The translations under genes were made by a program, and so were the position numbers. Shown piece by piece: positions 3,453-50,380 of a DNA stretch of 64,000 nt. Within the stretch, counting starts at the first letter, position 1, and each line of letters opens with the position of its first letter. The notes under the pieces are model-generated. The model did no database searches. It was given only the letters and a program-made list of their open reading frames with translations, and was not told where the DNA came from. Source of the stretch: Oncomelania hupensis (Eukaryota > Mollusca > Gastropoda > Littorinimorpha > Pomatiopsidae); NCBI GenBank assembly GCA_036898135.1, contig JBAHVR010000242.1, positions 61,001-125,000 of the forward strand. The letters are read 5' to 3'.

Positions 3453-4034
3453 TCAAATAACCTTATTTGAAAGTAACCGCATTGAAATTATTATGAAACA
3501 GCTCACTTTTCCAGTCCCAAACCTGCTCAAGACGCGAACCATAGCCTCAGTGGAATTCGGGACGCCGTATGTTTTGTTCGCCTTTCTCATTTCTCTTTGT
3601 TCTTGTGTGTAGGGTTTCCTCAGTTAAGCGCGGAGCTCCACCGTCAATTAGTGAAGGTATACAAATTATTATGATGTTCCAGCTAAATACACTGCGCATG
3701 CAATACAGTTGCTATTATGTAGTCAGCGCAGTCCGACTGCACCCACATAGTCTGTGTGCAGTGTTGCGCTAGTTGTGTTGCTGTGGCTTTAGTTTATACA
3801 CAATGCGTTTCTTTTATTCTTTCTTCACTTGCCACCTCCCTCTCCTTCCCTCGTCACACTGTTCACCCCCCAGTCATAACCCCCCACCCCCCCCCCACCC
3901 CCCGCCACCCCACATAAATTCTCCCGACCTTTCTGACTTATTCACCATTGTGAGCATGTCATCGTGCAGTCACTGGAAAAGTGAGCTGTTTCACAATAAT
4001 TTATATGCGGTTACTTTAAAATAACGCTATTTGA
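3453..4034. mobile_element. TIR element of about 580 bp (MITE-like)
   Basis: Left arm 3453-3512 and right arm 3969-4034 are near-perfect reverse complements over about 60 bp, including the blocks CTGGAAAAGTGAGCTGTTTC and TGCGGTTACTTT. The extreme ends contain a smaller palindrome, CAAATAA..TTATTTG. The interior holds a C-rich run (3878-3910) and no recognisable transposase. The right end abuts RTE copy B exactly, so no clean target-site duplication is visible. Superfamily not assignable. Confidence 0.75.
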
Positions 4035-4455
4035 GCAGATCTACAACAAAGAATACAAAGCATGGAGATGAGGTGCTACAGAAGACTTCTGGGGCATTTT
4101 CTGTACCCAGCACATCACCAACAACGAAGTCCGATAGACCATCACACATGCCATTGGACAACACGATGCCCTGCTCACAGTGATGAAAAAACGGAAACTC
4201 CGATGGTATGGCCACGACACCAGAGCGGCATCAGGCCTTGCAACGACGCTCCTGCAAGGCACGGTGAAAGGAGGCAGAAGAAGAGGGAGACACAAAAAGA
4301 GGTGGGAGGACAACATTCGGGAATGGACTGGTTTGATACTGAGCGAAGCCATGAGGGTTGCTGAGGACATAGAAAGATGGAGTACGCTGGTTAAACGATC
4401 ATCTTTCGTGCCCCAACGACCTTCGAGGTACGGGATAGGATGGGATAGGATAGGA
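4035..4455 (+). pseudogene. RTE/BovB-like LINE copy B, 5'-truncated 3' end
   Basis: This encodes the conserved C-terminal tail of the RTE ORF, with frameshifts: MRCYRRLLG, then RKLRWYGHDT and RRRGRHKKRWEDNIREWTGL. It ends in a short GGATAGGAT tail. The 5' edge is inside the ORF, at a point equivalent to 27380 in copy A. Truncation and a tandem tail are normal for target-primed reverse transcription. Confidence 0.9.
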
Positions 4456-4693
4456 TTCCGACTACCCTACCCCGTCCCTCTTCTCTCTCTCTGTCCATCC
4501 TTGTTCTTCCCTTTCTCCTGTACATTTTTTCGAGAGGGGAGGAGGGGGGAGGGGGAGGGGAGAAGGACTATTTCATCGAAACGCTCTTTCATTTTTCTTC
4601 AATCACTTCCTACTCTTTCTCCTTTCTTCTTACACTTCATTTTCAAATCAGTTAATCTCTTTATCTCTTTTTTTCTGGATTATTCTTCTTGGT

Positions 4694-6130: not shown

Positions 6131-6250
6131 CCAGTCCACCAACTTTGAATGGGTGGGTGGGTACCTGGATCTGTTTAGTACCGGGGAAGATAGGCCAGCG
6201 AGGGAGAGGAGATAGGCGCCGCCCTCATTAAGCTGTCCTTGAGGAAAGAG
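6131..6250 (+). mobile_element. 5S-derived SINE, 3' part (split)
   Basis: It resumes the SINE interrupted at 5497. Blocks such as AGCGAGGGA(C)AGAG, ATGGGC/ATAGGC and CCCTCATTA align with 17640-17690 in the uninterrupted copy. Confidence 0.7.
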
Positions 6251-6313
6251 AAATCCCAAACGCTTCTCTCCTCAACGATCGAAAAGTTACGGGGAGACCT
6301 TTACTTTTTATCT

Positions 6314-6349
6314 ATGCTGGTGCTAGTGTCAACATGCTTGATTCGTCAT
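6314..6349. repeat. Left remnant of the 8.1-8.6 kb minisatellite
   Basis: GCTAGTGTC and ATGCTTGATTCGTCAT match the array that resumes right after the LINE-A tail at 8138. LINE-A therefore appears to sit inside the array. Confidence 0.7.
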
Positions 6350-7910
6350 TCTAAGAACATTAAAAGCAAACTAGACATTCCTTATTTGTCTACAGAATTT
6401 GTACACAAAGCACTAACAAACCTTAAGCAAACAAATTCAAGAGGAATTGATGAATTGGATAGTAAAATACTAAAATTGTCTGCGTCATTTATTACTGACA
6501 CTTTAACGTATATATACAACCTATGCATAGACAAATCACATTTTCCTATAATGTTCAAAAAAGCTAAGGTTATACCCCTTTTCAAGAATGGTGATAGCAC
6601 TGACCCATCGAACTATAGGCCTATTTCGATTCTTTCTACTCTCTCTAAACCTCTTGAAAAGCACATAAATAATAATATTCTTGATCATTTCACTGAAAAC
6701 AGCCTCTTACATGAAAATCAGTCGGGTTTCAGAGCTAAACACTCTTGTCACACAGCTCTTACATCAATGATAGAACAATGGCTAAATAATATTAATAAGG
6801 GACAATTTTCTGGAACATTATTTGTTGACTTCGCAAAAGCTTTTGATGTAATAGACCATGACCTTCTTCTACGTAAACTAAACCTATATGGCATTCATTC
6901 CAAATCTCTTGAGTTTCTTAAATCGTTTATTTCGGACAGAGAACAGTGTGTTTATGTAAATAACCAAAAGTCACAATTTGAAATTGTTACAGCTGGAGTA
7001 CCGCAAGGATCTGTTTTAGGACCGTTGTTATTTTTCTATCTACATCAATGATCTCCCCCTTTATATTTCTACTTCTTGTGAACTCTTTGCTGATGACACT
7101 ACATTACATTCTCAAAATAGAGACTTGAATAAACTCTCCTCCTCATTACAAAAAGGGGCTAGTGAACTACAGGAATGGACTGAATACAACCACATGGCCC
7201 TCAATCCAGACAAAACAAAATCCATGCTAATTACAACAAGACAGAAAAGACAAAATGTATCAATAAAACTTCTTCCATTAAAAATTGGCAATACAATAAT
7301 TGCTGAAGTACAGTGTCATAAACTTCTTGGAGTAACTATAGACAATAATTTGTCCTGGGTAAAACATATTTCAAATATTAGTAAAACTATTTCTAAAAAG
7401 ACTTACCAATTGTCAAGGATAAAGCATTTATTAAATTTACATTCTCGTAAACTATTTTACTCCGGTCATATTCAATCATTTATTGATTATTCTTCTACTA
7501 TTTGGGATTCTGCCAGTGGCAATGCAATGAAACCTTTAATTAGAATTCACAAACGTGCAATTAAACAAATTTTGCTGAAACAAAAAATCTCTCCAGATGA
7601 CTATAAACGGATCAATATTCTACCCCTTACCGACAGACTAAAATTTAATAAAGGCGTTTTCATGCACAAGGTCCTTTCTGGCAATGCACCTTCCTATCTT
7701 TCTTCTCTTTTTTCAAAAAAAACTGCCAGATCGTCCACAAAATTAAATGTTCCAATTCCAAGAATTGATCTCTACAAAACTAGTCTAGCTTATTCCGGTT
7801 CCATTTTGTGGAATAACTTTCCTGAAGATCTCCGCACTCCAGCATCTAAATTTACATCATTTAGAACACGTCTTCTAAAACACATTAAAAATTAAATACA
7901 CATTAATTGT
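6350..7910 (+). pseudogene. LINE-A copy 2, reverse transcriptase ORF with one frameshift
   Basis: A 5'-truncated non-LTR reverse transcriptase copies its own RNA at the nicked target. Two frames join near 7033, in a T run. The first holds the palm blocks: NYRPISILS (from about 6609), QSGFRAKHSC, FVDFAKAFDVIDH (from 6821, with the first catalytic Asp) and GVPQGSVLGPLLF (from about 6994). The second starts with the catalytic FADD box at 7086-7097 and runs to a stop near 7895, including LNPDKTKSM and KLLGVTIDNNLSWVKHIS. The endonuclease and any ORF1 are absent. Because only one frameshift separates the frames, this looks the youngest LINE-A copy here. CR1/L2/Jockey-side affinity is inferred from motif style only. 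Confidence 0.9.
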
Positions 7911-11962: not shown

Positions 11963-12602
11963 AAGTATTATTAGTACTACTACTATTGAGAGTGTATATA
12001 GTACTACTACTATTGAGAGCGTATATAGTACTACTACTATTGAGAGTGTGTATAGTACTACTACTATTGAGAGTGTATATAGTACTACTACTATTGAGAG
12101 TGTATATAGTACTACTACTATTGAGAGCGTATATAGTACTACTACTATTGAGAGTGTATATAGTACTACTACTATTGAGAGTATATATAGTACTACTACT
12201 ATTGAGAGTGTATATAGTACTACTACTATTGAGAGTGTATATAGTACTACTACTATTGAGAGTGTATATAATACTACTACTATTGAGAGTGTATATAATA
12301 CTACTACTATTTAGAGTGTATAGTACTACTACTATTGAGAGTGTATATAATACTACTACTATTGAGAGTGTATATATATAGTACTACTACTATTGAGAGT
12401 GTATATAATACTACTACTATTGAGAGCGTATATAGTACTACTACTATTGAGAGCGTATATAGTACTACTACTATTGAGAGTGTATATAATACTACTACTA
12501 TTGAGAGTGTATATAGTACTACTACTATTGAGAGCGTATATAGTACTACTACTATTGAGAGCGTATATAGTACTACTACTATTGAGAGCGTATATAATAC
12601 CA
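11963..12602. repeat. 27-bp minisatellite, about 23 units
   Basis: The unit is AGTACTACTACTATTGAGAG plus TGTATAT or CGTATAT. Variants alternate GTATATAGT with GTATATAAT, and a few units carry indels (12310, 12370). A period of 27 keeps two plus frames and one minus frame open; nothing suggests translation. Confidence 0.97.
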
Positions 12603-15018: not shown

Positions 15019-15048
15019 TCTTCCCCCGTTGGGGTGCCGGGGGTTTCA

Positions 15049-15585
15049 TTATAAATAGTATCCACACTTTCTGGAAATTTAGTGCTTTAAATTCCCACTG
15101 TCGCTGTCTTTCTCATTTACTCTTTTTTATTCCTGTTCTGTTCTATCAATCTTCTATACTATCTTCTTCTTCGCTAGACCAGTCACCTACCTTTTTTCTT
15201 GAAAACTCTTCCAGCACAAGACTTCTTGTTTGTGTATGAGGTCTGTTGGATCAGCTTGGGAGTGTTGGACGCTTTCTGCCAGGTGGTCACTATGGCTTCC
15301 TATGATGTTATTATTTAGCAATGTAGGCATTTTATATGTATGTGTTTTGTTGATATTTTATATTGATGTTTATATTCTATTTTGTTTTTGTAAACGGGAG
15401 TTCGATAAATTAGAGTACAGCCTCAGCGTCCCTAGCGTGTGATGTCTTTATTGTAAAGTGACTGGCTGGTGGAGAGCTTTCAGTTTTACCACTAGGGTTG
15501 TTTCAGCAGATCTTTTATGCGGATCAGGGGTTGTCCGGTCCTGATTTGGCTCGAAAGAGTCCGCTGGACCTAAAGCAATAACGGT

Positions 15586-17766: not shown

Positions 17767-17945
17767 GATTATTGTCACACGACACCGGAGCGTATAGGCG
17801 ACTACTGGTCACATTATTCTGACACCAGCGAACCAGTTGATGGTAAGGGGAAATTAATATAGTCACACATTGGCCAATCCTGGATTCGAACCAGGTACCT
17901 TTCGGTTACTAGTAAGACGCTCTACCAACTGAGCTACCCGGCCCC
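17767..17945 (-). mobile_element. tRNA-Thr-like SINE, copy 1
   Basis: On minus the head reads GGGTAGCTCAGTTGGTAGAG (box A) ... CTAGTAA (anticodon loop, AGT = Thr) ... GGTTCGAATCC (box B). The anticodon stem is mispaired, so it is not a functional tRNA. The body (TGGTGTCAGAATAATGTGAC, GTCGTGTGACAATAAT) is shared with 29699-29885. Confidence 0.85.
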
Positions 17946-18599: not shown

Positions 18600-18714
18600 T
18601 ACGGTTAAAAGGGACAGTGAAAATGGCCTTATTTTATTTCGCCCACCACGGGATTCGAACCTGGGTCATCGGTGTGCCAGGCGAACGCTCTACCACCTGA
18701 GCTACGGCGGTGGG
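18600..18714 (-). mobile_element. tRNA-Ala-like SINE head
   Basis: On minus: CCGTAGCTCAGGTGGTAGAG (box A), CTGGCAC (anticodon loop, GGC) and GGTTCGAATCC (box B), followed by GGCGAAATAAAATAAGG. The T and anticodon stems pair poorly, so I read it as a tRNA-derived SINE or tRNA pseudogene, not a working tRNA. Confidence 0.65.
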
Positions 18715-18819: not shown

Positions 18820-18866
18820 TAGTTCCCTTGTCAGTACAGTGCTGTTCTCGCAAAGGGATAGCTCAG
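18820..18866 (+). mobile_element. tRNA-like SINE head, 5' part, split by the foldback
   Basis: GGGATAGCTCAG is a box A. The rest of the head lies at 22657. The two parts share CTCAG at the junctions (18862-18866 and 22657-22661). Confidence 0.7.
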
Positions 18867-18889
18867 TATGGGGCGCCATGTGTCCATTT

Positions 18890-19862
18890 ATTCTATGTGA
18901 CCATTCTATACATAGAATAAATTCTATGCACATAGAAAGCATTCTATACACACAAAAAGCATTCATTAGTTGAAATTCCATTTATAAAAAAGAAACCAAT
19001 ATTGTAAGTCATAGAATAAAATTCTTTGTATAGAATAACATTCTATAATATAGTGTAAAATTCTATGTCCATAATACAATTCTGTGTATAGAATGACATT
19101 TTATAATAGAGAATAATATTCTATGTATGTAATACAATTCTATATTATAGAATGCACTTGTATGCATAGAATTATATTCTATAACATAGAATGAATTCTA
19201 TTACAAAGAATGAATTCTATAACATAGAATGAATTCTTTAAAATAAAATAAATTGCATGACATAGAATTATTTCTATACGCATAGAATTCATTCTATAAC
19301 ATAGAATGAATTCTTTAACATAAAATAAATTATATGACATAAAATGAATTCTATGTGCATAGAATAAATTGAATAACATAGAATGAATTCTATAATAAAG
19401 AATGAATTCTATATGCATAGAATGAATTTTATAGCATAGAATGAATTCTATGACATAGAATTCATTCTATGACATAGAATGAATTCTATAGGCATAGAAT
19501 GAATAGTATAACATAGAATGAATAAGATGACATAGAATGAATTCTATGACATAGAATGAATTCTATGACATAGAATGAATTCTATAACATAGAATGAATT
19601 ATATAGCATAGAATGAATTCTATGACATAGAATTTATTCTATAGCATAGAATGAATTTTATGTTACAGAATGAATTCTATGTCATAGAATTCATTCTATG
19701 CTATATAATTCATTCTATATTATAGAATTCATTCTATGTCATAGAAATCATTCTATGTCATCTTATTCATTCTATGTTATACTATTCATTATATGCTATA
19801 GAATTCATTCTATGTCATAGAATTCATTCTATGTCATAGAATTCATTCTATGTTATACAATA
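18890..19862. repeat. Left-arm palindromic satellite (ATAGAATGAATTCTAT family)
   Basis: About 19-20-bp units, each centred on the 16-bp perfect palindrome ATAGAATGAATTCTAT and joined by ACA or GCA. The arm can therefore fold both on itself and with the right arm. Confidence 0.95.
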
Positions 19863-19928
19863 AAATCAATATAAAAACTTTTTTTTAAATAGTAAAAACT
19901 GGGACACTGTCAAGGTATAGAGAACATT

Positions 19929-21647
19929 TCGGGATATTGTGATGTTTTGAACATAGCACACTTGTGCAATAATGATTACAGAGCGATTTGTCACTGACAT
20001 TCAGTTTAGAGTTGACGACATGCAGTGCTTCATCATTTGCGCTCGAAGTGGAAATCGATGAAAGGAAATGTTCTTTTCTTTGCAGAGAGGTTTTACGTCG
20101 GAGTTAGAGCATCCAAACACAGCACAGTACTTCACCATTTTCAAACTCGATCACGCTGTGTTATTTCCGCAGCACGTGGCCGCCACGCCTTTGTGCATAG
20201 CGCCCTGGGGGGCCGCTTGGGGTGAAATAGATTTTTTGCAATATTCAGCTTTAGGAACCTTTCATTTATTATGTCTCAGAGTTGTATAGCAATATTCGAC
20301 CTTTAAATATATTAATTATTGCTTTTTATGAGTGTACAGTACGGTTATTTCTTCGGTATTGAGCGAAAAGAACTGATTATTTAATTAGATTTTGTCACTA
20401 TAAACCCTTACAGAACCTCAGCACATTGTAATGAAAAAAGCAAGCACGCAGGGGCGGAGGGGGGGGGCAGGGTGTGACGTCAATTATTTTTATTGCTAAG
20501 CGATCTACTCACACTAATTATACTGTCGAAGTCGTCCGCATCAAGAAACCTAAATGCTTGTTCACAAAATTATGATGTCTGATAAAGCCGCAGAGCGCGC
20601 GTGCAAGGCTCCACGTGTCCCTTTATACGTCACAGCCTCGCTTCACATAGAATGACCTAGTTGCGCATAGAATGAGCATTCTATGTTATAGAATGAACAT
20701 TCTATGTTATAGAATGGATTCTATGTTATAGCATGAACATTCTAAGTTATACAATGGATTCTATGTTATAGAATGACCATTCTATGTTATAGAATGAATT
20801 CTATGTTATAGAATGACCATTCTATGTTATAGAATGAACATTCTATGTTATAGAATGGATCCTATGTTATAGAATGAACATTCTATGTTATAGAATGAAC
20901 ATTCTATAACATAGAATGCATTCTATGTGCACCAAATGTTAAAAAAACCATTCTATGAAAATAGAATGTATTCAGTGTTGCGAATAAAATCCATTTTATG
21001 TTAAAAAAATGAATTTTATGTCATACAATTCTTGCTGTGTTATACAATTAATTCTATATACATATAATTCATTTCATTCACATAAAATTAAAAAACACAA
21101 CTAATAAATTGTAACAAAATTTTGAATTTAAAAAAAGATATTGTATGACACATCACCACATCGCATCATCACCACATCGATCACATCATCACATCACATC
21201 ACTGCATCACATTGCTTCATCACCATCATCGTGAAAACGCACCACCACATAAAATCACATCATATCAACAAATCATCACATCACATCAGCCGACATCACA
21301 GCAGCAGCACATCTTCACATTGCAGCAGACAGCACATATTATGGCATCAGTGAATCACATCACATAATCTAATCACCCCACCCCTCCCACCCATCACATT
21401 TGTGGTGCAGTGTGGTGTGATTTAGAGTGATGTAGTGTGGTGATGTGATGTGGTAATGTGTATGTATGTATCTGCAATACAGTTCTATTATGCCTTAAAA
21501 GCAATGAATCAGACCACATCGTCACATAACCTAATCACTCCACCACACCTACCCATCACATTTGTGGTGCAGTGTGATGTAGAGTGATGTGGTGTGGTAA
21601 TTGGATGTGGCAATGTGTATATCTCTCTGCAATACAGTCCCATGCCA
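19929..21647. other. Foldback spacer
   Basis: Unique-looking sequence at 19929-20640 (short frames of 66 and 73 residues, no domain). Then come the central array, and a CATCA-rich stretch at 21147-21370. Two direct repeats follow at about 21397-21480 and 21560-21630 (TTTGTGGTGCAGTGT, GGCAATGTGTAT/GGTAATGTGTAT, CTGCAATACAGT). The spacer is not itself inverted. Confidence 0.75.
20646..20940. repeat. Central satellite array of the foldback
   Basis: Units of 20-22 bp, ATTCTATGTTATAGAATGAAC, about 14 copies. The array lies within about 35 bp of the element's midpoint (20761). Confidence 0.9.
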
Positions 21648-21714
21648 TAAAAAATGTTCTCTATACCTTGACAGTGCCCCAGTTTTTACTATTTTAAAAA
21701 AAAGTGTATATATT

Positions 21715-22640
21715 GATTTCATTCTATAACATAGAATGAAGTCTATGACATAGAATGAATTCTATGACATAGAATGAATTCTATGACATAGAATGAATTC
21801 TATAGCATAGAATGAATAGTATAACATAGAATGAATAAGATGACATAGAATGAATTCTATGACATAGAATGAATTCTATAACATAGAATGAATTCTATAG
21901 CAAAGAATGAATTCTATGACATAGAATTTATTCTATAGCATAGAATGAATTCTATAGCATAGAATGAATTCTATGACATAGGATTCATTCTGTAACATAG
22001 AATTCATTCTATGCTATAGAATAAATTCTATGTCATAGAATTCATTCTATGCTATAGAATTCATTCTATGTTATAGAATTCATTCTATGTCATAGAATGA
22101 ATTCTATGTCATAGAATTCATTCTATGCTATAAAATTCATTCTATTCATATAGAATTCATTCTTTATTATAGAATTCATTCTATGTTATACAATTTATTC
22201 TATGCACATAGAATTCATTTTATGTCATATAATTTATTTTATGTTAAAGAATTCATTCTATGTTATAGAATGAATTGTATGCACATAGAATAAATTCTAT
22301 GTTATAGAATTCATTCTTTGTAATAGAATTCATTCTATGTTATAGAATACAATTCTATGCATACAAGTGCATTCTATAATATAGAATTGTATTACATACA
22401 TAGAATCTTATTCTCTATTATAAAATTTTATTCTATACATAGAATTTTATTATGGACATAGAATTTTACACTATATTATAGAATGTTATTATATACAAAG
22501 AATTTTATTCTATGACTTACAATATTGGTTTCTTTTTATAAATGGAATTTCAACTAATGAATGCTTTTTGTGTGCATAGAATGCTTGCTATGTGCATAGA
22601 ATTTATTCTATGTATAGAATGGTCACATAGAATAAATGGA
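21715..22640. repeat. Right-arm palindromic satellite
   Basis: Reverse-complement counterpart of the left arm, with the same palindromic unit. Confidence 0.95.
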
Positions 22641-22656
22641 CACATGGCGCCCCATA

Positions 22657-22945
22657 CTCAGATGCTCGTGTTACAAAGGTTGCGGGTTCGATTCCCGGTG
22701 GCCCGGACATAAACATTGGCTGTGAGCACTGGCCATCTTATTGTTGCTATTAGTCTGATGATTGTTTCAGTGTATATCTTTTCTGTCTCCCCCAACTTCG
22801 GTCGCTTAGGATGGTGCTCGGTGGTCTGAGCGTCAGACAGTGCGCCAATGGCAGCCAGTGGGCAGCTGGAGTTAGATTCTGTATCGCCCAGCGCCTTGCG
22901 CAGCTTTTGAGCTGAAAACGCGCGCTATATAAGAATGATAAAATA
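22657..22945 (+). mobile_element. tRNA-headed SINE-G, part after the foldback
   Basis: TTGCGGGTTCGATTCCCGG is a box B. The body continues through GGTGGTCTGAGCGTCAGACA and CCAGCGCCTTGCGCAGCTTT to the 3' end GCGCGCTATATAAGAATGAT. Together with 18820-18866 this is a nearly complete SINE hit by the foldback. Confidence 0.8.
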
Positions 22946-23640
22946 AGTCCTCCCCCCTCCCCTTCCTTTAAAACTGTTCACCTCTTTCACATCTCATGCT
23001 TCTGCTAAACCTTACCTGTTTAGCTGACTGGCGTCAACGTCGTCATCATCACCCATGTATTCGAGGTAATACACATTGCTGCGATCGGTAGAAAGTATCG
23101 CCAACACTCCCGCTAGCAGCAGGTGAAAGTATTCCCTCCATCCCTTCAAAGTATACTTTGGGCTCGCTGCTAGCCGCCGATGCGAACCGCAGTACTGTTT
23201 AAAAGTGACGGAAAGAGCGGAATAAACAAGGATTCGGGTAAGAGTTAGTTGTAATCTATCCCTAGCCCTTGCCCTAACCCTTTTCTCTACAAAAATGCTC
23301 TTTTTCTGTCCCCAAAAACCCATTTGCCTTCTTGGATTCTTAAATTGTATGAAACCAAGTGAGGACACTATCCGGCGTCAATAAACGGTTCGAAAAGATT
23401 CTCAAACGGTTCGTAAAAGACAGTTGACCTAGAAACAAATACAGCGTGACCTAATTTGTCGCCTAGAGGAGACGAAACTTACTTTTCCGTTTGTAGTCTT
23501 TGAGCGACACTGTAACTGAGCAGGCTGCTAACCTCGCCAAAGTATCCCTTCAAGGGACAAGGGACATACTTTGGCCTGCTGCGCAACGTGTGCCTGGAGT
23601 ATACTTTCTTTTGATCGTAGCTATGTGCAATGGGTGTGTA
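22946..23640. other. Unassigned stretch with internal inverted blocks
   Basis: A 118-residue minus frame (23012-23368) has no recognisable domain. CCCTTCAAAGTATACTTTGG at 23143-23162 is largely palindromic, and a related AAGTATCCCTTCAAGGGA(C) occurs at 23540-23557. Confidence 0.45.
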
Positions 23641-24465: not shown

Positions 24466-24875
24466 TGGGTTCGGGCACTGAATAGAATAGGCCCAACGTT
24501 TCCCGGCGTGTCGTAAGAGGCGACTAACAGGGGTAATGTTAGCACGGCATCACTGGGCGAAAGTCTTCTACACAGAAGTCACCGGCCAGGGCGAAAAACC
24601 TCACGTTGCTACAGGTTCAACGACCACGTGCTCGGGGCCAAGGCGAGCCACACTGTATTCGTGGATTTCGGCTGTGCCCAACAGCCTGGAGAGGATTGGG
24701 CACCGCCAGGTCCTTTTTTGCCCAAGACACACAACATGCATGATGACACTATCCACTAATTCCATACCGGTTAGGTCGTCGCCCGGCTCAAGGACCGCGC
24801 CTTCCGTTGGCCACCAGGACGGAGGTGTTAAGTATGCTACTGATGGACAATTTAGCAAGATCCGCACGAGAAACA

Positions 24876-25653
24876 ACATCGTCATAGGAACCTGGAATGT
24901 CAGGACCCTAACTGCGGAAGGAAAATTAGAAGAACTGGCCCACGAGTTGGACCGCTATCGATGGAACGTTCTAGGCATTAGCGAACTGCGCTGGAAAGGC
25001 CTAGGTGAAACAACGACAGACAAAGGCCACAAGCTCTATTTCAGCGGTAGAGATGACAGGCACGAACACGGCGTTGGATTCTTGGTCCACAAGAACATTC
25101 TAGCCACTGTCATGGGTTGCCGCCCAGTAGACTCATTACCATCCGCCTGAGAGCAGCCCCTTTCAACATCACCATCATCCAGACCTATGCCCCAACATCA
25201 GACTATGACGACACCGAAGTGGAGGATTTTTATGAAAATCTACAGGCGGTCCTTGACCAAGTGCCGAAGAAGGACATAGTCATAGTGCAAGGCGACTGGA
25301 ATGCCAAGGTTGACCAAGATGCGCACCACAACTGGGGAGACACATGTGGACCCCACTGCAACAACGAGACAAATGACAGGGGTTTGAGATTCTTGGAGTT
25401 TGCCAGATACAACAATCTGGTACTGGCAAACACGCTTGGTCTCCACAAAAACTCCAGACGATGGACATGGCACAGTCCCAGGGGGGAGCATCACAACCAA
25501 ATAGACTACATCATGGTCAAGAAACGCTTCAGATCAAGCATCAACATTGGCAGGACACGCACTTTTCCAGGAGCAGACATCGGAAGTGACCACGATCTCT
25601 TGATGATGTCTTTCCGGCTCCACTTGAAGAGAGTAAATACTGCACTAGACTGA
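24876..25653 (+). pseudogene. RTE ORF: apurinic endonuclease domain (frameshifted)
   Basis: AP-endonuclease-like domain that nicks the target for reverse transcription. Visible blocks: GTWNVRTLT, then ISELRWKGLGE (metal-binding Glu), TYAPTSDYDD, VQGDWNAKVDQ (catalytic D.N), NQIDYIMV and GSDHDLL (catalytic SDH). One frameshift near 25120-25150 separates the first two blocks from the rest. The motif set is that of the RTE clade, to which vertebrate BovB and the domesticated gene CFDP2 are related. The frame ends at 25653 after RVNTALD and is offset from the next one. Confidence 0.9.
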
Positions 25654-26152
25654 AGTTCGACCTGGACAAACTGCAAGACCCGGTGGTGGCAGAACTATTT
25701 CAGGCCACAATTGAAGGGAAATTTGCACCAGTGCTCATTTTTGGGGCTGGTGAAGTAGATGTCAACACCATGACCACCACCTTCAACTCAGCTGTAACAG
25801 ATGCCGCCACTGAGATCCTTGGCAAGCACCGACCAAAGAAGAAGCCGTGGATCACACCTGAACTTTTGGATCTGTGTGATAAACGAAGAGAGATTTAAAA
25901 AAATAAAGAAAAAGAACACCTCGCAGGGAGCTGATGTCTACCGAAAAATCAACAATGACATCCGAAAAGGCATGCGCACAGCAAAGGGATAACTGGATAG
26001 AAGATCAATGCCAGGAAATAGAGAACAGTCTGAACAAGAACAACAGCAAGAAGGCCTACTAGACTGTAAAGCGGCTGACAAGTTTCAAACAGCCCAAAGT
26101 CTCCACGATCCAAAGCAAGTCTGGCATATGCCTTACAGAAGAACAAGAAGTC
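25654..26152 (+). pseudogene. RTE ORF: linker region, multiply broken
   Basis: Pieces of the ORF between endonuclease and reverse transcriptase remain in three frames, including KHRPKKKPWITPELLDLCDKRR near 25825-25895. Several stops and shifts occur. Confidence 0.75.
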
Positions 26153-27319
26153 TTGGACAGATGGACAGAGTACTGCTCTGACCTTTACAACCATACACCA
26201 AATGGAGACCCATCAGTTCTAGCATGTCCCGAGAACAGAGAAGAAGAAATCCTACCAATTCTCCGGGAAGAAGTTGAGGCAGCAGTGCAATCGATAAAGA
26301 AAGGGAAGTCAGCGGGAGTGGACAACATACCCGCGGGACTGCTACAAGCAGGAGGAGAAGCGATGATTGATGCCCTCACCATTATCTGTAACAAGATCTG
26401 GCAGAGTGGAGAGTGGCCTATACCATGGGCCCAGTCGCTTGTCATCGCTGTTCCCAAAAAAGGTAACCTTCAGGAGTGTGAAAATTACCGCACCGTCAGC
26501 CTCATCATCCATCCCAGCAAGGTCCTCCTGAAAATATTACTCAACAGGTTGAAACCCCAAGCTGAACAAATCATAGCTGAAGAACAAGCAGGATTCAGGG
26601 CAGGGCGAAGTACCACTGAACAGATTTTCAACCTCAGAATAATCTGTGAGAAATACCTACAGCACCAACAACATCTATAGCATGTGTTCATAGACTTCAA
26701 GAAAACGTTTGACCGAGTCTGGCATGCAGCTCTATGGGCAACAATGAAAGCGTACAACATCAGACCTAAAATTATTGAAGTCATCAAAAGCCTGTATGAC
26801 AAGGCTACCAGTGCAGTCCTCCAAAAGAGCGCCATCGGGAACTGGTTCAGAACAACAATCGGTGTGCGTCAAGGATGCCTACTCTCTCCAACACCCTTCA
26901 ACATCTTCCTAGAGCGCATCATGTCAGATGCTCTTGCAGATCACGAAGGCACAGTCAGCATAGGGGGTAGAGCAATCTCCAATCTTCGTTTTGCGGATGA
27001 CATTGATGGATTGGCTGGAGAGGAACAAGAACTTGAACAGCTGGTACAGAGGCTTGACACCACCTCCAAAGCTTGTGGAATTGAAATAAGTGCAGAGAAG
27101 ACCGAAATGATGACCAACAACACCAATGGCATCAACACGGACATCAAAGTCCAAGGCCAATCCCTCAACACAGTGCATAGCTTCAAATATTTAGGAGCCA
27201 TTGTATCAGACAATGGGTCCCGACAGGAAGTCCTCTCCAGGATCGCACAAACAACTGCTGCCCTGACAAGGTTGAAGCCATTTGGAAAGACAGGACCATC
27301 ATTTTACATTCCAAAGTAA
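26153..27319 (+). pseudogene. RTE ORF: reverse transcriptase domain (one stop, one frameshift)
   Basis: Palm and finger blocks in order: SAGVDNIPAGLL, CENYRTVSLI, EEQAGFRAGRSTTEQIF, FIDFKKTFDRVWH (first catalytic Asp), GVRQGCLLSPTPFN and the catalytic FADD at 26990-27001. A single in-frame TAG at 26678 interrupts between Leu and His. At the end, one C is lost in the Pro codon near 27280 (GCCATTTGG against GCCCATTTGG in copy D), which shifts the frame and gives a stop at 27319. The catalytic residues themselves are preserved. Confidence 0.92.
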
Positions 27320-27786
27320 GACTGCTACACTCCCTTGTCATCTCCATCTTCCTATATGCTTGCGAAGCATGGACCCTCACAGCAGATCTACAACGAAGAA
27401 TACAAAGCATGGAGATGAGGTGCTACAGAAGACTTCTGGGCATTTCCTATACCCAACACATCACCAACGACGAAGTCCGACAGACCATCACACAAGCCAT
27501 TTGACAACACGATGACCTACTCACAGTGGTGAAGAAACGGAAACTCCGATGGTATGGCCACGTCACCAGATCATCAGGCCTTGCAAAGACTATTCTGGTA
27601 GGCACAGTGCAAGGAGGTAGAAGAAGAGGGAGACCGAAAAAGAGGTGGGAGGACAACATTCGAGAATGGACTGGTTTGACACTGAGCGAAGCCATCAGGG
27701 CTGCTGAGGACAGAGAGAGATGGAGTATGCTGGTTAAACGATCATCTGTGGTGCCCCTACGACCTCAGGGTTACGGGACAGGATAG
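27320..27786 (+). pseudogene. RTE ORF: C-terminal domain and tail
   Basis: After the frameshift the C-terminal region continues: LHSLVISIFLYACEAWTL, RCYRRLLGI, a TGA at 27502, then KLRWYGHVTR, RRRGRPKKRWEDNIREWTGL. The last 40 bp are GGATA repeats. This C-terminal region is the part kept in every truncated copy. Confidence 0.9.
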
Positions 27787-27815
27787 GATAGGATAGGATA
27801 GGATAGGATAGAATA

Positions 27816-28374: not shown

Positions 28375-28450
28375 TGTGTCTATCCCCTGAGTTTTTGCAC
28401 TGGGGTAGTGCATTCGCGCAGTGGTTTAGCCACACGCTAGAACTGTTTCA
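28375..28450 (+). mobile_element. 5S-SINE head, left copy of a 76-bp duplication
   Basis: TGTGTCTATCCCCTGAGTTT to CTAGAACTGTTTCA is repeated at 29028-29103 with two mismatches (28411 A/G and 28427 G/A by eye). RTE copy D lies between the two copies. Confidence 0.9.
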
Positions 28451-29027
28451 AATATTTAGGAGCCATTGTATCAGACCATAGGTCCCGACAGGAAGTCTTC
28501 TCCAGGATCGCACAAACAACTGTTGCCCTGACAAGGTTAAAGCCCATTTGGAAAGACAAGACCATCAGTCTACATTCCAAGATAAGGCTGCTGCGCTCAC
28601 TTGTCATCTCCATCTTCCTATACGATTGCGAAACATGGACCCTCGCGGCAGGTCTACAACGAAGAATACAAAGCATGGATATGAGATGCTACAGAAGACT
28701 TCTGGGCATTTCCTACATATCCAGCAAACCACCAACAACGACGTCCGACAGACCATCACGCAAGCCATTGGACAACACGATGACATGCTCACAGTGGTGA
28801 AGAAACGGAAACTCCGGTGGTATGACCACATCACCGGAGCATCAGACCATCCTGGAAGGCACGGTGCAAGGAGGTAGAAGAAGAGGGAAGCAGAAAAAGA
28901 GGTGGGAGGACAACATTCGAGAATGGACTGGCTTGACAATGAGCGAAGCCATGAGGGTTGCAGAGGACAGAGAAAGATGGAGTACGCTGGTTAAACGATC
29001 ATCTTCGAGTTTCGGGATAGGATAGGA
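28451..29027 (+). pseudogene. RTE-like LINE copy D, 5'-truncated
   Basis: It begins inside the ORF at the equivalent of 27186 in copy A (AATATTTAGGAGCCATTGTA) and runs to a short GGATAGGAT tail. It includes CRRLLGI-type, RKLRWYDHIT and KKRWEDNIREWTGL blocks in broken frames. The flanking 76-bp duplication marks it as a bona fide insertion. Confidence 0.92.
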
Positions 29028-42445: not shown

Positions 42446-42695
42446 TCCTATCCTATCCTATCCTGTCCCATAACCCGAAGGTCGTAGGGGCACCACAGAT
42501 GATCGTTTAACCAGCATACTCCATCTTTCTTTGTCCTCAGCAGCCCTCATGGCTTCGCTCAGTGTCAAACCAGTCCATTCTCGAATGTTGTCCTCCCACC
42601 TCTTTTTCGGTCTCCCCCTTCTTCTACCTCCTTGCACTGTGCCTTGCAGAATGGTCTTTGCAAGGCCTGATGATCTGGTGACGTGGCCATACCAT
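42446..42695 (-). pseudogene. RTE-like LINE copy E, nested in a SINE
   Basis: The (GGATA)n tail (as TATCC) is at 42446-42465. On minus the ORF end reads RKRGGRTTFEN, with the nucleotide run for the KKRWEDNIREWTGL tail. It is only 250 bp long and separates the two parts of a tRNA-like SINE. Confidence 0.9.
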
Positions 42696-44132: not shown

Positions 44133-44571
44133 GTTGCTTTATTTTCTCCTTTGTTTTTAACTTTAGCGTCGACCAATTCACTTTCACTTTCTCCTCCTAC
44201 CCTAGTCATCTTGACACACACCCTCGTCCACTGCCTTTCTTTCCATTACTCTTACCCTACCCCTTCTTCTCTTCTTCACCTACGTCCATTCTCACTCCAG
44301 CTTTTTAGCCCGTACACCATACCCTTGATTGCATTGTTCAAACAGGTAGCGCTCTATCGGCTTAGAGTCCTGCTGAAGGCGCTGCCCGTGAACAGTTTAA
44401 CGACGGGTTTACGGAACGAATATAGGTAACTTAGAGGCGTAAGTTTTACTATTGGTTCCTAACACTCAATCATAAAACTGGCCCCGGGAGCGAATAGAAC
44501 GTCGCTGTTGTACTATCAATTGATTTTTCGACCTTCATTTTCGTTGTTCTACCTGTCTCCCACCCAAACAC
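44132..44571. other. Unassigned stretch
   Basis: A possible eroded SINE-G end at 44345-44395 (GTAGCGCTCTATCGGCTTAG, GAAGGCGCTG). Otherwise nothing. Confidence 0.4.
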
Positions 44572-45125
44572 AGTATAAATAGTATCCCCACTTTCTGGAA
44601 ATTTTGTGCTTTAAATTCCCACTGTCGCTGTCTTTCTCATTTGCTCTTTCTCATTCCTGCTCTTTTCTATCAATCTGCTATACTATCGTCTTCTTCGCTA
44701 GACCAGTCTCCTACCTTTTTTCTTGAAAACTCTTCCGGGACAAGACTCCTTGTTTGTGTATGAGGTCTTTTGGATCAGCTTGGGAATATTGGACGCTTTC
44801 TGCCAGGTAGTCACTAGGGCTTCCTATGATGTTATTATTTAGCAATGTAGGCATTTTATATGTATGTGTTTTGTTGATAATTTATAATGATGTTTGTATT
44901 CTGTTTTGTTTTTGTAAACGGGGGTTCGATAAGATGGGGTGAAGCTTCAGCCGTCGCCTGCGTGGGATGTCTTTATTGTAAAGTGACTGGCTGGTGGAGA
45001 GCTTTCGGTTTTACCACTAGAGTTGTTTCAGCAGATCTTTTATGCGGATCGGGGGTTGTCCGGTCCTGATTTGGCTCGGAAGAGTCCGCTGGACCTAAAG
45101 CAATAATAATGTAATGTAATGTAAT
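44572..45125 (+). repeat. Interspersed repeat R3, copy 2, with (TAATG)n tail
   Basis: It matches 15049-15588 at high identity over its length. After GGACCTAAAGCAATAA it has about four TAATG units, the form expected of a non-LTR 3' tail. No ORF, so the parent element cannot be named. Confidence 0.85.
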
Positions 45126-45378: not shown

Positions 45379-45758
45379 ACGAAGTCCAACAGACCGTCTC
45401 GACGAAGTCCGACAGACCATGGACGAAGTCCGACAGACCATCACACAAGCCATTGGACAACACGATGACCTGCTCACAGTGGTGAAAACACGGAAACTCC
45501 GATGGTATGGCCACGTCACCGGATCATCAGATCTTGCAAAGACTATCCTGCAAGGCACAGTGCAAGGAGATAGAAGAAGAAGAGGGAGACCGAAAAAGAG
45601 GTGGGATGACAACATTCGAGAATGGACTGGTTTGACACTGAGTGAAACAATCAGGGTTGCTGAGGACAGGGAAAGATGGAGTACGCTGGTTAAACGATCA
45701 TCTGTGGTGCCCCTACGACCTCCGAGTTATGGGATAGGAAAGGATAGGATAGGATAGG
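45379..45758 (+). pseudogene. RTE-like LINE copy F with triplicated 5' edge
   Basis: The segment ACGAAGTCCGACAGACCAT occurs three times in a row (first as CGAAGTCCAACAGACCGT) at 45379-45446. A clean 3' end follows: KLRWYGHVTGSSDLAKTIL, KKRWDDNIREWTGL, SVVPLRPPSYGIG and the GGATA tail. The 128-residue frame is open through this region. The triplication may be template jumping during insertion or later slippage. Confidence 0.9.
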
Positions 45759-46024
45759 AGTGGGCTCAGCTACGCTGGCATCATTCCCACACCGTCTGTC
45801 GAGCTGTTAAGGCAATTCCTTTTAGCCATCGGTCTCTGGTTGGGGTGGCAAAGGCCCCTGTGGTCCATTTTGAAACTGTTGATTCCATTATAATTGAATT
45901 AGGCACAGGGGAGAGAGGGAGGGAGAGAGAGAGAGAGTCCCTCTCCTTACAGACCAGCTTAATATTTCATGAGATCTTGACGGAGGAGGCAAAGTGGAGG
46001 AAACTAGACAGAGTTCATCTAGGA
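45759..46024. other. Unassigned stretch
   Basis: Short GA run at 45910-45938; no gene. Confidence 0.5.
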
Positions 46025-47841: not shown

Positions 47842-48215
47842 CTTCCTATACTATCCTATCCCGTAACTCGAAGGTCGTTGGGGCACCACAGATAATCGTT
47901 TAACCAGCGTGCTCCATCTTACTCTGTCCTCAGCAACCCTCATGGCTTCACTCAATGTCAAGCCAGTCCATTCTCGAGTGTTGTCCTCCCATCTCTTTTT
48001 TGTCTCCCTCTTCTTCTGCCTCTTCGCACCGTGCCTTGCAGGATGGTCTTTGCAAGGCCTGATGATCTGGTGACGTGGCCATACCATCGGAGTTTCCGTT
48101 TCTTCACCACTGTGAGTATGTCATCGTGTTGTCCAATACTTGTGTTATGGTCTGTTGGACTTTGTCGTTGGTGATGTGCTAAAAAAATGAAATGCCCAGA
48201 AGTCTCTTATAGCAC
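47842..48215 (-). pseudogene. RTE-like LINE copy G, 3' segment
   Basis: A TATCC tail at 47848-47862, then on minus ETKKRWEDNTREWTGLTLSE and MVWPRHQ-type shifted frames. It stops at AGCAC (48211-48215) where the 1.6-kb insert begins and continues at 49832. Confidence 0.9.
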
Positions 48216-49831: not shown

Positions 49832-50380
49832 AGCACCTTACCTCCATTCTTTGTATTCTTCGTTGTAGATCTGCTGTGAGGGTCCATGTTTCGCAAGCGT
49901 ATAGAAGATGGAGATGACAAGGGTGCGCAGCATTTTTTTTCTTGGAATGTAGACTGATGGTCCTGTCTTTCCAAATGGGCTTCATTTTTATCAGGGCAGC
50001 AGTTGTTTGTGCGATCCTGGAGAGGACTTCCTGTCGGGAACCATTGTCTGATACAATGGCTCCTAAATACTTGAAGCTATGCACTGTGTTGAGGGATTGA
50101 CCTTGGACTTTGATGTCCGTGGTGATGACATTGGTGTTGTTTGTCATCATTTTTTACTTCTCTGCACTTATTTCCATTCCATTGGCTCTGGAGGTGAGCC
50201 AAACCTATGTACCAGCTGTTCAAGTTCTTGTTCCTCTCCAGCCAATCCATCAATGTCATCCGCAAAACGGAAGCTGGAGATTGCTCTACCCCCATATGCT
50301 GACTGTGCCTTCGTGATCTGCAAAGGCATCTGACATGATGCGCTCTAGGAAGATGTTAAAGAGTGTTGGAGAGAGTGGAC
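49832..50380 (-). pseudogene. RTE-like LINE copy G, upstream segment
   Basis: On minus: CETWTLTADLQRRIQRMEVR, QSLNTVHSFKYLGAIVSDNG, QLEQL/CRKLE-like frames back to the LSPTLFNIFLERIMSDAFADH region, all out of a single frame. It ends at 50380 inside the reverse transcriptase. With 47842-48215 it forms one 5'-truncated copy of about 920 bp. Confidence 0.9.

Follow-up and report, generated by a model that had tools for sequence, protein, structure and literature searches.

We identified a foldback DNA transposon in a 64,000-nucleotide stretch of the Oncomelania hupensis genome (GenBank assembly GCA_036898135.1, contig JBAHVR010000242.1, positions 61,001 to 125,000 of the forward strand), which we call the window and number from its first base. 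The element is 3790 bp long, with inverted arms of about 1 kb built from short interrupted-palindrome units and a third array of related units near its middle. We conclude with high confidence that it is a non-autonomous, cut-and-paste transposon of the foldback type with terminal inverted repeats (TIRs), having fixed ends, target-site duplications of 5 bp or less often 6 bp, and a preference for palindromic targets. A prediction made from the letters of the window had placed a span of about 3.79 kb between two copies of CTCAG, and these boundaries were confirmed (Table 1).

Fixed ends, target-site duplications and an empty site

Further copies were sought in the genome to which the window belongs, 1.45 Gb in 428 contigs. 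The 19-mer at the element terminus gave 1,619 matches with up to two mismatches (802 + 817), and the reversed control gave none. The 100 exact ends listed for this 19-mer all came from one contig (C1) and comprised 40 convergent pairs and 20 unpaired ends; 27 of the pairs were spaced 3.7–4.4 kb, the extremes being 323 bp and 13.9 kb. A left-arm query (18862-19861) yielded 2348 first-look candidates, and the 40 of these that were scored, the window's own place included, were full-length matches of 99–100% identity whose starts fell within CTCAG or on the first TATGGGG base. Because the query contained CTCAG, this similarity-ranked sample favors CTCAG-flanked copies. Both ends were present and convergent in 31 of the 39 loci fetched (L009-L047); the other eight (L017, L019, L029, L034, L035, L041, L043, L044) lacked two recognizable ends within the stretch fetched and were excluded. 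The genome thus holds other copies with the same ends, and their boundaries agree with those of the window copy.

Duplications were assessed in 66 copies with both flanks read: 32 similarity-ranked copies including that of the window, four further copies, and 30 from the contig list (of the 40 C1 pairs, six others were already in the sample and four were unread). A perfect 5-bp duplication was present in 52 and a perfect 6-bp duplication in 10, together 62/66. The 5-bp duplication originally proposed is therefore the prevailing form but not the only one. The 6-bp duplications are true ones rather than 5-bp duplications lengthened by chance, and they were found in 8 of the first 36 copies and 2 of the 30 later ones. 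The targets are palindromic by preference, with the pattern GCN-[5 bp]-NGC. Over the 52 five-bp sites the symmetrized information was 0.32 bits at position -3 (G) and 0.30 bits at position -2 (C), compared with a 99% null maximum of 0.118.

An uninterrupted target was found for one insertion. A pattern search for element ends abutting one of 32 selected 5-mers returned 83 ends, 19 of them with CAAGG or its complement. These 19 ends represent 12 loci (seven pairs and five single ends), all of which were read, and their flanks look unrelated, so that the insertions seem to be independent. One of the copies, C9:7049399-7053444, lies within another copy of the family. When its flanks (L125/L126) were joined with a single CAAGG, 82 of 85 aligned positions matched window positions 19871-19955 without a gap, indicating that the target had one copy of the 5-mer until this element inserted. 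An empty site, which the original prediction had named as a check, is thus provided by a self-insertion of the family. With fixed ends, short target duplications and an empty site, the element is a TIR DNA transposon. By contrast, six CATGG ends (L148-L153, on C12 and C10) have nearly identical flanks, so that an insertion-bearing locus seems to have been multiplied there.

The family contains both closely similar and diverged members. In a position-by-position comparison of 29 left arms, which had been selected for similarity to the window copy, the median pairwise difference was 0.56%; such near-identity suggests that the family is at least partly young. Greater divergence is seen in three longer copies (L048-L050), whose arms at best match the window copy at mostly 84–92% identity. 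A 323-bp miniature at L051:71-393 shares the ends of the family and is flanked by a TTCCC duplication of its own. When the first 144 bp were compared with one query, left ends were 99.3–100% identical and right ends mostly 97.2–99.3%, indicating that right arms do not simply mirror left arms. Neither exact matches to the terminal 19-mer nor matches to a two-unit satellite pattern occurred in the GTDB contigs or IMG/VR, and no relatives outside the window's own genome were found in those two collections.

Structure of the arms and the central array

The arms had been predicted to be inverted over about 1 kb each, and the aligned lengths were 1063 bp on the left and 1005 bp on the right; 939 of the 985 ungapped columns were identical, and a further 98 columns held gaps. 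Exact identity of the two element ends extends over 69 bp. Both arms also include an inner stretch that is not satellite, suggesting that each arm was copied in its entirety and that the two are more than satellites of like kind.

The arm unit is ATAGAAT-NN-ATTCTAT-NNN with a period of 19 bp. Exact matches to the 16-mer ATAGAATGAATTCTAT number 32 in the window, split between separate strands and all within the element (mean of 0 in 100 shuffles). It had been described as a perfect palindrome repeated every 19–20 bp. The period holds, but the perfect symmetry does not: the reverse complement is ATAGAATTCATTCTAT, and pairing is limited to 7 + 7 bases around a 2-base centre, making the unit an interrupted palindrome. 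Its two central bases are usually GA or TC, and this break in symmetry gives each unit a direction. Within each arm the main direction switches, with a few exceptions, so that a single arm can form a hairpin by itself. In agreement with the predicted self-complementarity, the DNA fold of 19434-19870 has a free energy of -182.8 kcal/mol (z = -31.6), and none of 100 shuffles was equally stable.

A third array near the midpoint, also predicted, consists of related 19- and 21-bp units. The central half-site block is centred at 0.52 of the length of the window copy and was found in 32/32 full copies analyzed; the DNA fold of the region (20640-21090) has a z of -13.35. A tentative terminus-like 20-mer adjoins this array. 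Its score was equalled by 8 of 1000 Markov nulls, and it is present among the copies listed, with changes in L018 and L042. With long, internally repetitive inverted repeats and a middle domain, the element has the structure of a foldback transposon.

Table 1. Features of the element and its surroundings in the window.
Feature	Position	Strand	Remarks
Left target-site duplication, CTCAG	18862..18866	.	also duplicated at L010 and L049
Whole element	18867..22656	.	3790 bp; end sequence common to other copies read
Left arm, terminal inverted repeat	18867..19929	+	1063 bp
Left end, 69 bp	18867..18935	+	identical to opposite end; starts TATGGGGCGCCATGTGTCC
Left array, 19-bp interrupted-palindrome units	19008..19861	+	Tandem Repeats Finder; main direction switches at ~19670
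Inner non-satellite end of left arm	19886..19929	+	partner at ~21652-21695
CAAGG, uninterrupted form of the C9:7049399-7053444 insertion site	19911..19915	+	flank alignment
45-codon open frame resembling N-terminal half of THAP zinc finger	20004..20138	-	profile match
Terminus-like 20-mer (tentative)	20607..20626	+	17/20 identical to element terminus; adjoins central array
Central array, related 19- and 21-bp units	20667..20928	+	
ATCACA-rich direct repeats, interior	21147..21562	+	
Right arm, terminal inverted repeat	21652..22656	-	1005 bp
Right array, 19-bp units	21721..22465	+	Tandem Repeats Finder; main direction switches at ~21980
Matching right end, 69 bp	22588..22656	-	
Right target-site duplication, CTCAG	22657..22661	.	
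Flank, possibly tRNA-derived short interspersed element hit by the element	22662..22950	+	GGTTCGATTCCCGG at 22685; 3' part has six window relatives

A THAP-like frame and candidate sources of transposase

The window copy has no evident coding capacity, its longest interior frame being at most 75 codons, but the original statement that it carries no recognizable transposase has to be qualified. What had been missed is a partial THAP-like domain with a weak score. The minus strand from 20138 to 20004 reads MVKYCAVFGCSNS...ISFHRFPL..., and this frame, one of nine scanned, matched positions 1-30 of the 87 of the THAP profile PF05485 with an E of 9.8e-4 and 20.3 bits, below the curated cut-off of 23.9. 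Human THAP1 matched the frame with an E of 0.0059, Met on Met, and two other THAP chains matched as well; insulin-like chains came next at an E of 0.8. Of 53 stretches compared, 48 have the THAP-like exon without gaps; this set includes the window copy twice (as W and L053) and ten stretches fetched for their matching exon. The exon is free of stops in the best 150 of 1684 candidates, a ranked sample. A comparison of the exon with the protein database gave no candidate with three shared words.

We also looked for a transposase elsewhere in the genome. In the longer copy L049 an 860-codon frame (L049:2294-4873) matches reverse transcriptase and RNase H, indicating a retrotransposon nested in a copy of the element, and two frames of L048 have no Pfam match at an E of 0.1. 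The integrase-core domain PF24764, which we take to stand for IS3EU, has 25 matches in the genome. The single PF24764 locus that was read, L122, has a 353-codon open frame with this domain; it was rejected as a partner for lack of ends like those of the element, to which it has only a 17-bp match.

Proposed mechanism and evidence that weighs against it

DDE transposons are mobilized by a transposase that can be supplied in trans; it cuts the element ends, joins them to a staggered cut in the target, and so leaves a duplication. By analogy, a transposase encoded elsewhere would recognize the ends of the present element, presumably in trans, cut at TATGGGG, and join the ends to a target cut with a stagger of 5–6 bases. 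The arms may provide closely packed half-sites (ATTCTAT every 9–10 bp, alternating between strands) to which many transposase molecules bind. This idea follows the model for Galileo, whose THAP domain binds tandem repeats in its long inverted repeats (PMC3688188). More speculatively, the element could have arisen by internal deletion from a parent encoding a transposase with a THAP domain at its start.

Several observations weigh against this interpretation. Four of the 66 copies have no matching duplication, although in one of them, L020, the difference is a single mismatch. For three such copies (L013, L104, L120) no reciprocal inversion partner with exact ends and a fitting 5-mer was found on the same chromosome, and we do not claim that the family has made inversion breakpoints. 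Neither an autonomous copy nor a linked transposase was found when the three longer copies were read and frames of L048 and L049 were compared with Pfam, so that the autonomous partner with the same TIR raised in the original prediction did not emerge from L048-L050.

The THAP-like exon adds further points on this side. Its distinct changes were 12 nonsynonymous, 9 synonymous and 1 stop, where the neutral expectation is 73, 23 and 4 percent. The excess of synonymous changes has a one-sided P of 0.044, which is suggestive at most, and there is no clear purifying selection on the exon. A search of the genome for the last conserved bases of the exon (exact) followed within 20 bases by the splice-donor shape GTRNGT returned no match. 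The diverged copies L048-L050 match parts of the interior from 20206 onward at 76–88% and lack the exon segment, so that the exon could be a captured host fragment. Two readings of the exon remain, a remnant of the parent transposase and a captured host exon.

Conservation of the half-sites relative to the spacers was at best marginal between copies. Within 72 units the half-site positions carried 0.9–2.0 bits and the spacers 0.2–0.8 bits, a difference favored by the choice of these units for their likeness to the motif. An apparently strong conservation between copies (29/659 as against 70/404 variable positions) was discarded, the rows having been compared position by position without alignment. 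In the aligned test, which retained 30/32 left and 28/32 right arms, half-sites varied less than spacers when all bases were considered (left arms, P 0.05 for single changes and 0.16 for shared changes; right arms, 0.046 and 0.0099). With A/T positions alone the four values were 1, 0.54, 0.048 and 0.42, one of them marginal, and we make no claim of half-site conservation.

Relationship to known transposons

Originally, no superfamily could be named with confidence for a 5-bp duplication with a TATGGGG terminus. We likewise assign none, but the termini do fit a published pattern. Published IS3EU families without exception end in TA..TA, and their duplications are usually of 6 bp (PMC10045372); fungal IS3EU elements have TAYGG..CCRTA ends with inverted repeats of over 30 bp (PMC12730594). 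The element, with TATGG..CCATA, agrees with both forms of the ends. An IS3EU/GingerRoot element, with an integrase-like DDE transposase producing duplications of 5–6 bp, is thus a possible but tentative identity. The observed duplications of 5 or 6 bp and the occurrence of PF24764 integrase-core genes in the genome are consistent with it. However, 5-bp duplications exceed 6-bp ones by 52 to 10, the reverse of what is usual for IS3EU, and the one PF24764 locus read is not linked to element ends. For these two reasons we have not filed the element under IS3EU. In addition, the word THAP does not occur in PMC10045372, and the excerpts of PMC10045372 and PMC12730594 mention no foldback member with satellite arms such as those of the element.

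The THAP-like exon and the internally repetitive 1-kb arms recall a different group, the Galileo-like foldbacks of the P superfamily. THAP domains are also found outside the P superfamily, and the P element itself makes duplications of 8 bp. Galileo, a Drosophila element, has arms of 0.5–1.2 kb with internal tandem repeats and encodes a THAP transposase (PMC3688188). Like the present family it includes copies without matching duplications (12 in PMC3573991), but its duplications are 7 bp (PMC3573991) rather than 5–6 bp, and the window copy contains only a partial THAP-like domain and no recognized P transposase. Membership in this group therefore appears unlikely.

Still less probable is a hAT5-type element. 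The termini of hAT elements are unlike TATGGGG, and 10 of the 66 copies have a 6-bp duplication. The hAT5 group is defined by 5-bp duplications (PMC12730594), the length seen in 52/66 copies; this comparison is by length alone, and membership would also require a hAT transposase. Spread of a satellite through hairpins or recombination, with no transposase involved, could draw on the strong hairpin potential and on array lengths that differ between copies (57–81 half-sites in the right arm), but fixed ends, exact 5–6-bp duplications in 62/66 copies and a clean empty site make it very improbable. That the second arm is a false inversion made in assembly has a negligible probability: palindromes are hard to assemble and runs of N occur in 4 of the 39 fetched loci, but the many independent loci with convergent ends (31/39, and 40 pairs on one contig) and the differing identity of left and right ends to a common query argue against it.

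Foldback elements of the non-autonomous kind are already known. Sea-urchin TU and Drosophila FB have arms with short tandem repeats, like the element, and duplications of 8 and 9 bp, unlike it. Tetris of Drosophila virilis is a non-autonomous foldback with tandem-repeat arms for which its authors found no autonomous copy (PMC4079207); it differs from the element in its 8–10-bp duplications as against 5–6 bp and in its TIR-220 repeats as against a 19-bp unit. Duplications of 4 or 5 bp are made by Ginger2 (PMC2836005), but in the Ginger2/TDD comparison the other Ginger2 families have 4 bp, and inverted repeats of 50–180 bp differ from arms of about 1 kb. In some Dada families the insertion site is TAGCTC, which corresponds to nucleotides 8-13 of tRNA genes (PMC8869645), and the window copy similarly sits at TAGCTCAG in possibly transfer RNA (tRNA)-derived sequence. 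Dada, however, makes 6–7-bp duplications in multicopy RNA genes (PMC8869645), whereas the element has mostly 5-bp duplications and diverse flanks.

Among the open-access literature matches listed, no title or abstract opening described a family combining 5/6-bp duplications, IS3EU-like ends, arms of palindromic units and a third, central array, and this combination is new as far as our literature searches go. A broader proposal, possible but less likely than not, is that the family represents a foldback lineage outside Mutator and P, the superfamilies in which foldbacks are usually placed, marked by integrase-like ends, a 5/6-bp stagger and palindromic targets. Alternating half-sites about one helical turn apart in the arms and central array would hold an extended transposase filament in a tripartite synaptic complex, and the family would be either the first foldback of IS3EU type or a new superfamily. 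An integrase-like partner would mean that the foldback design arose in one more superfamily. Foldbacks have been tied to chromosomal inversions (Galileo) and to the birth of satellites (Tetris), and what their long arms are for is a long-standing question. With its large number of copies, many of them nearly identical, the present family makes boundaries, target choice and arm function directly testable, the material including 62 insertions with intact duplications, the 323-bp miniature and the empty site of the self-insertion.

Flanking sequence and other features of the window

We analyzed the flanks of the element for tRNA genes with ARAGORN. Default settings gave no tRNA in either flank or in the joined flanks; relaxed settings gave weak calls with and without CTCAG, and the right flank by itself also gave them. 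On the minus strand, two tRNA-like genes (17871-17943 and 18641-18711) lie about 0.9 and 0.15 kb to the left of the element.

The window also contains frames that resemble pieces of retrotransposons of the non-long-terminal-repeat type (6239-7895 and 24536-27319). Several relatives of the frame at 7125-7892 carry PF00078, and a distant relative of a window retrotransposon frame was found in Mytilus at 32% identity. Members of a dispersed repeat family are located at 4034-4456, 27182-27803, 28447-29004, 42446-42695, 45416-45759, 47844-48215 and 49832-50376, with about 84–96% identity among the matches listed, and a 0.53-kb repeat is present as a pair (15047-15581 and 44571-45106, 92.5% identity). 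Two minisatellites were found, at 11972-12600 (27-bp units, 94% matches) and at 2056-2300 (30-bp units, 93%).

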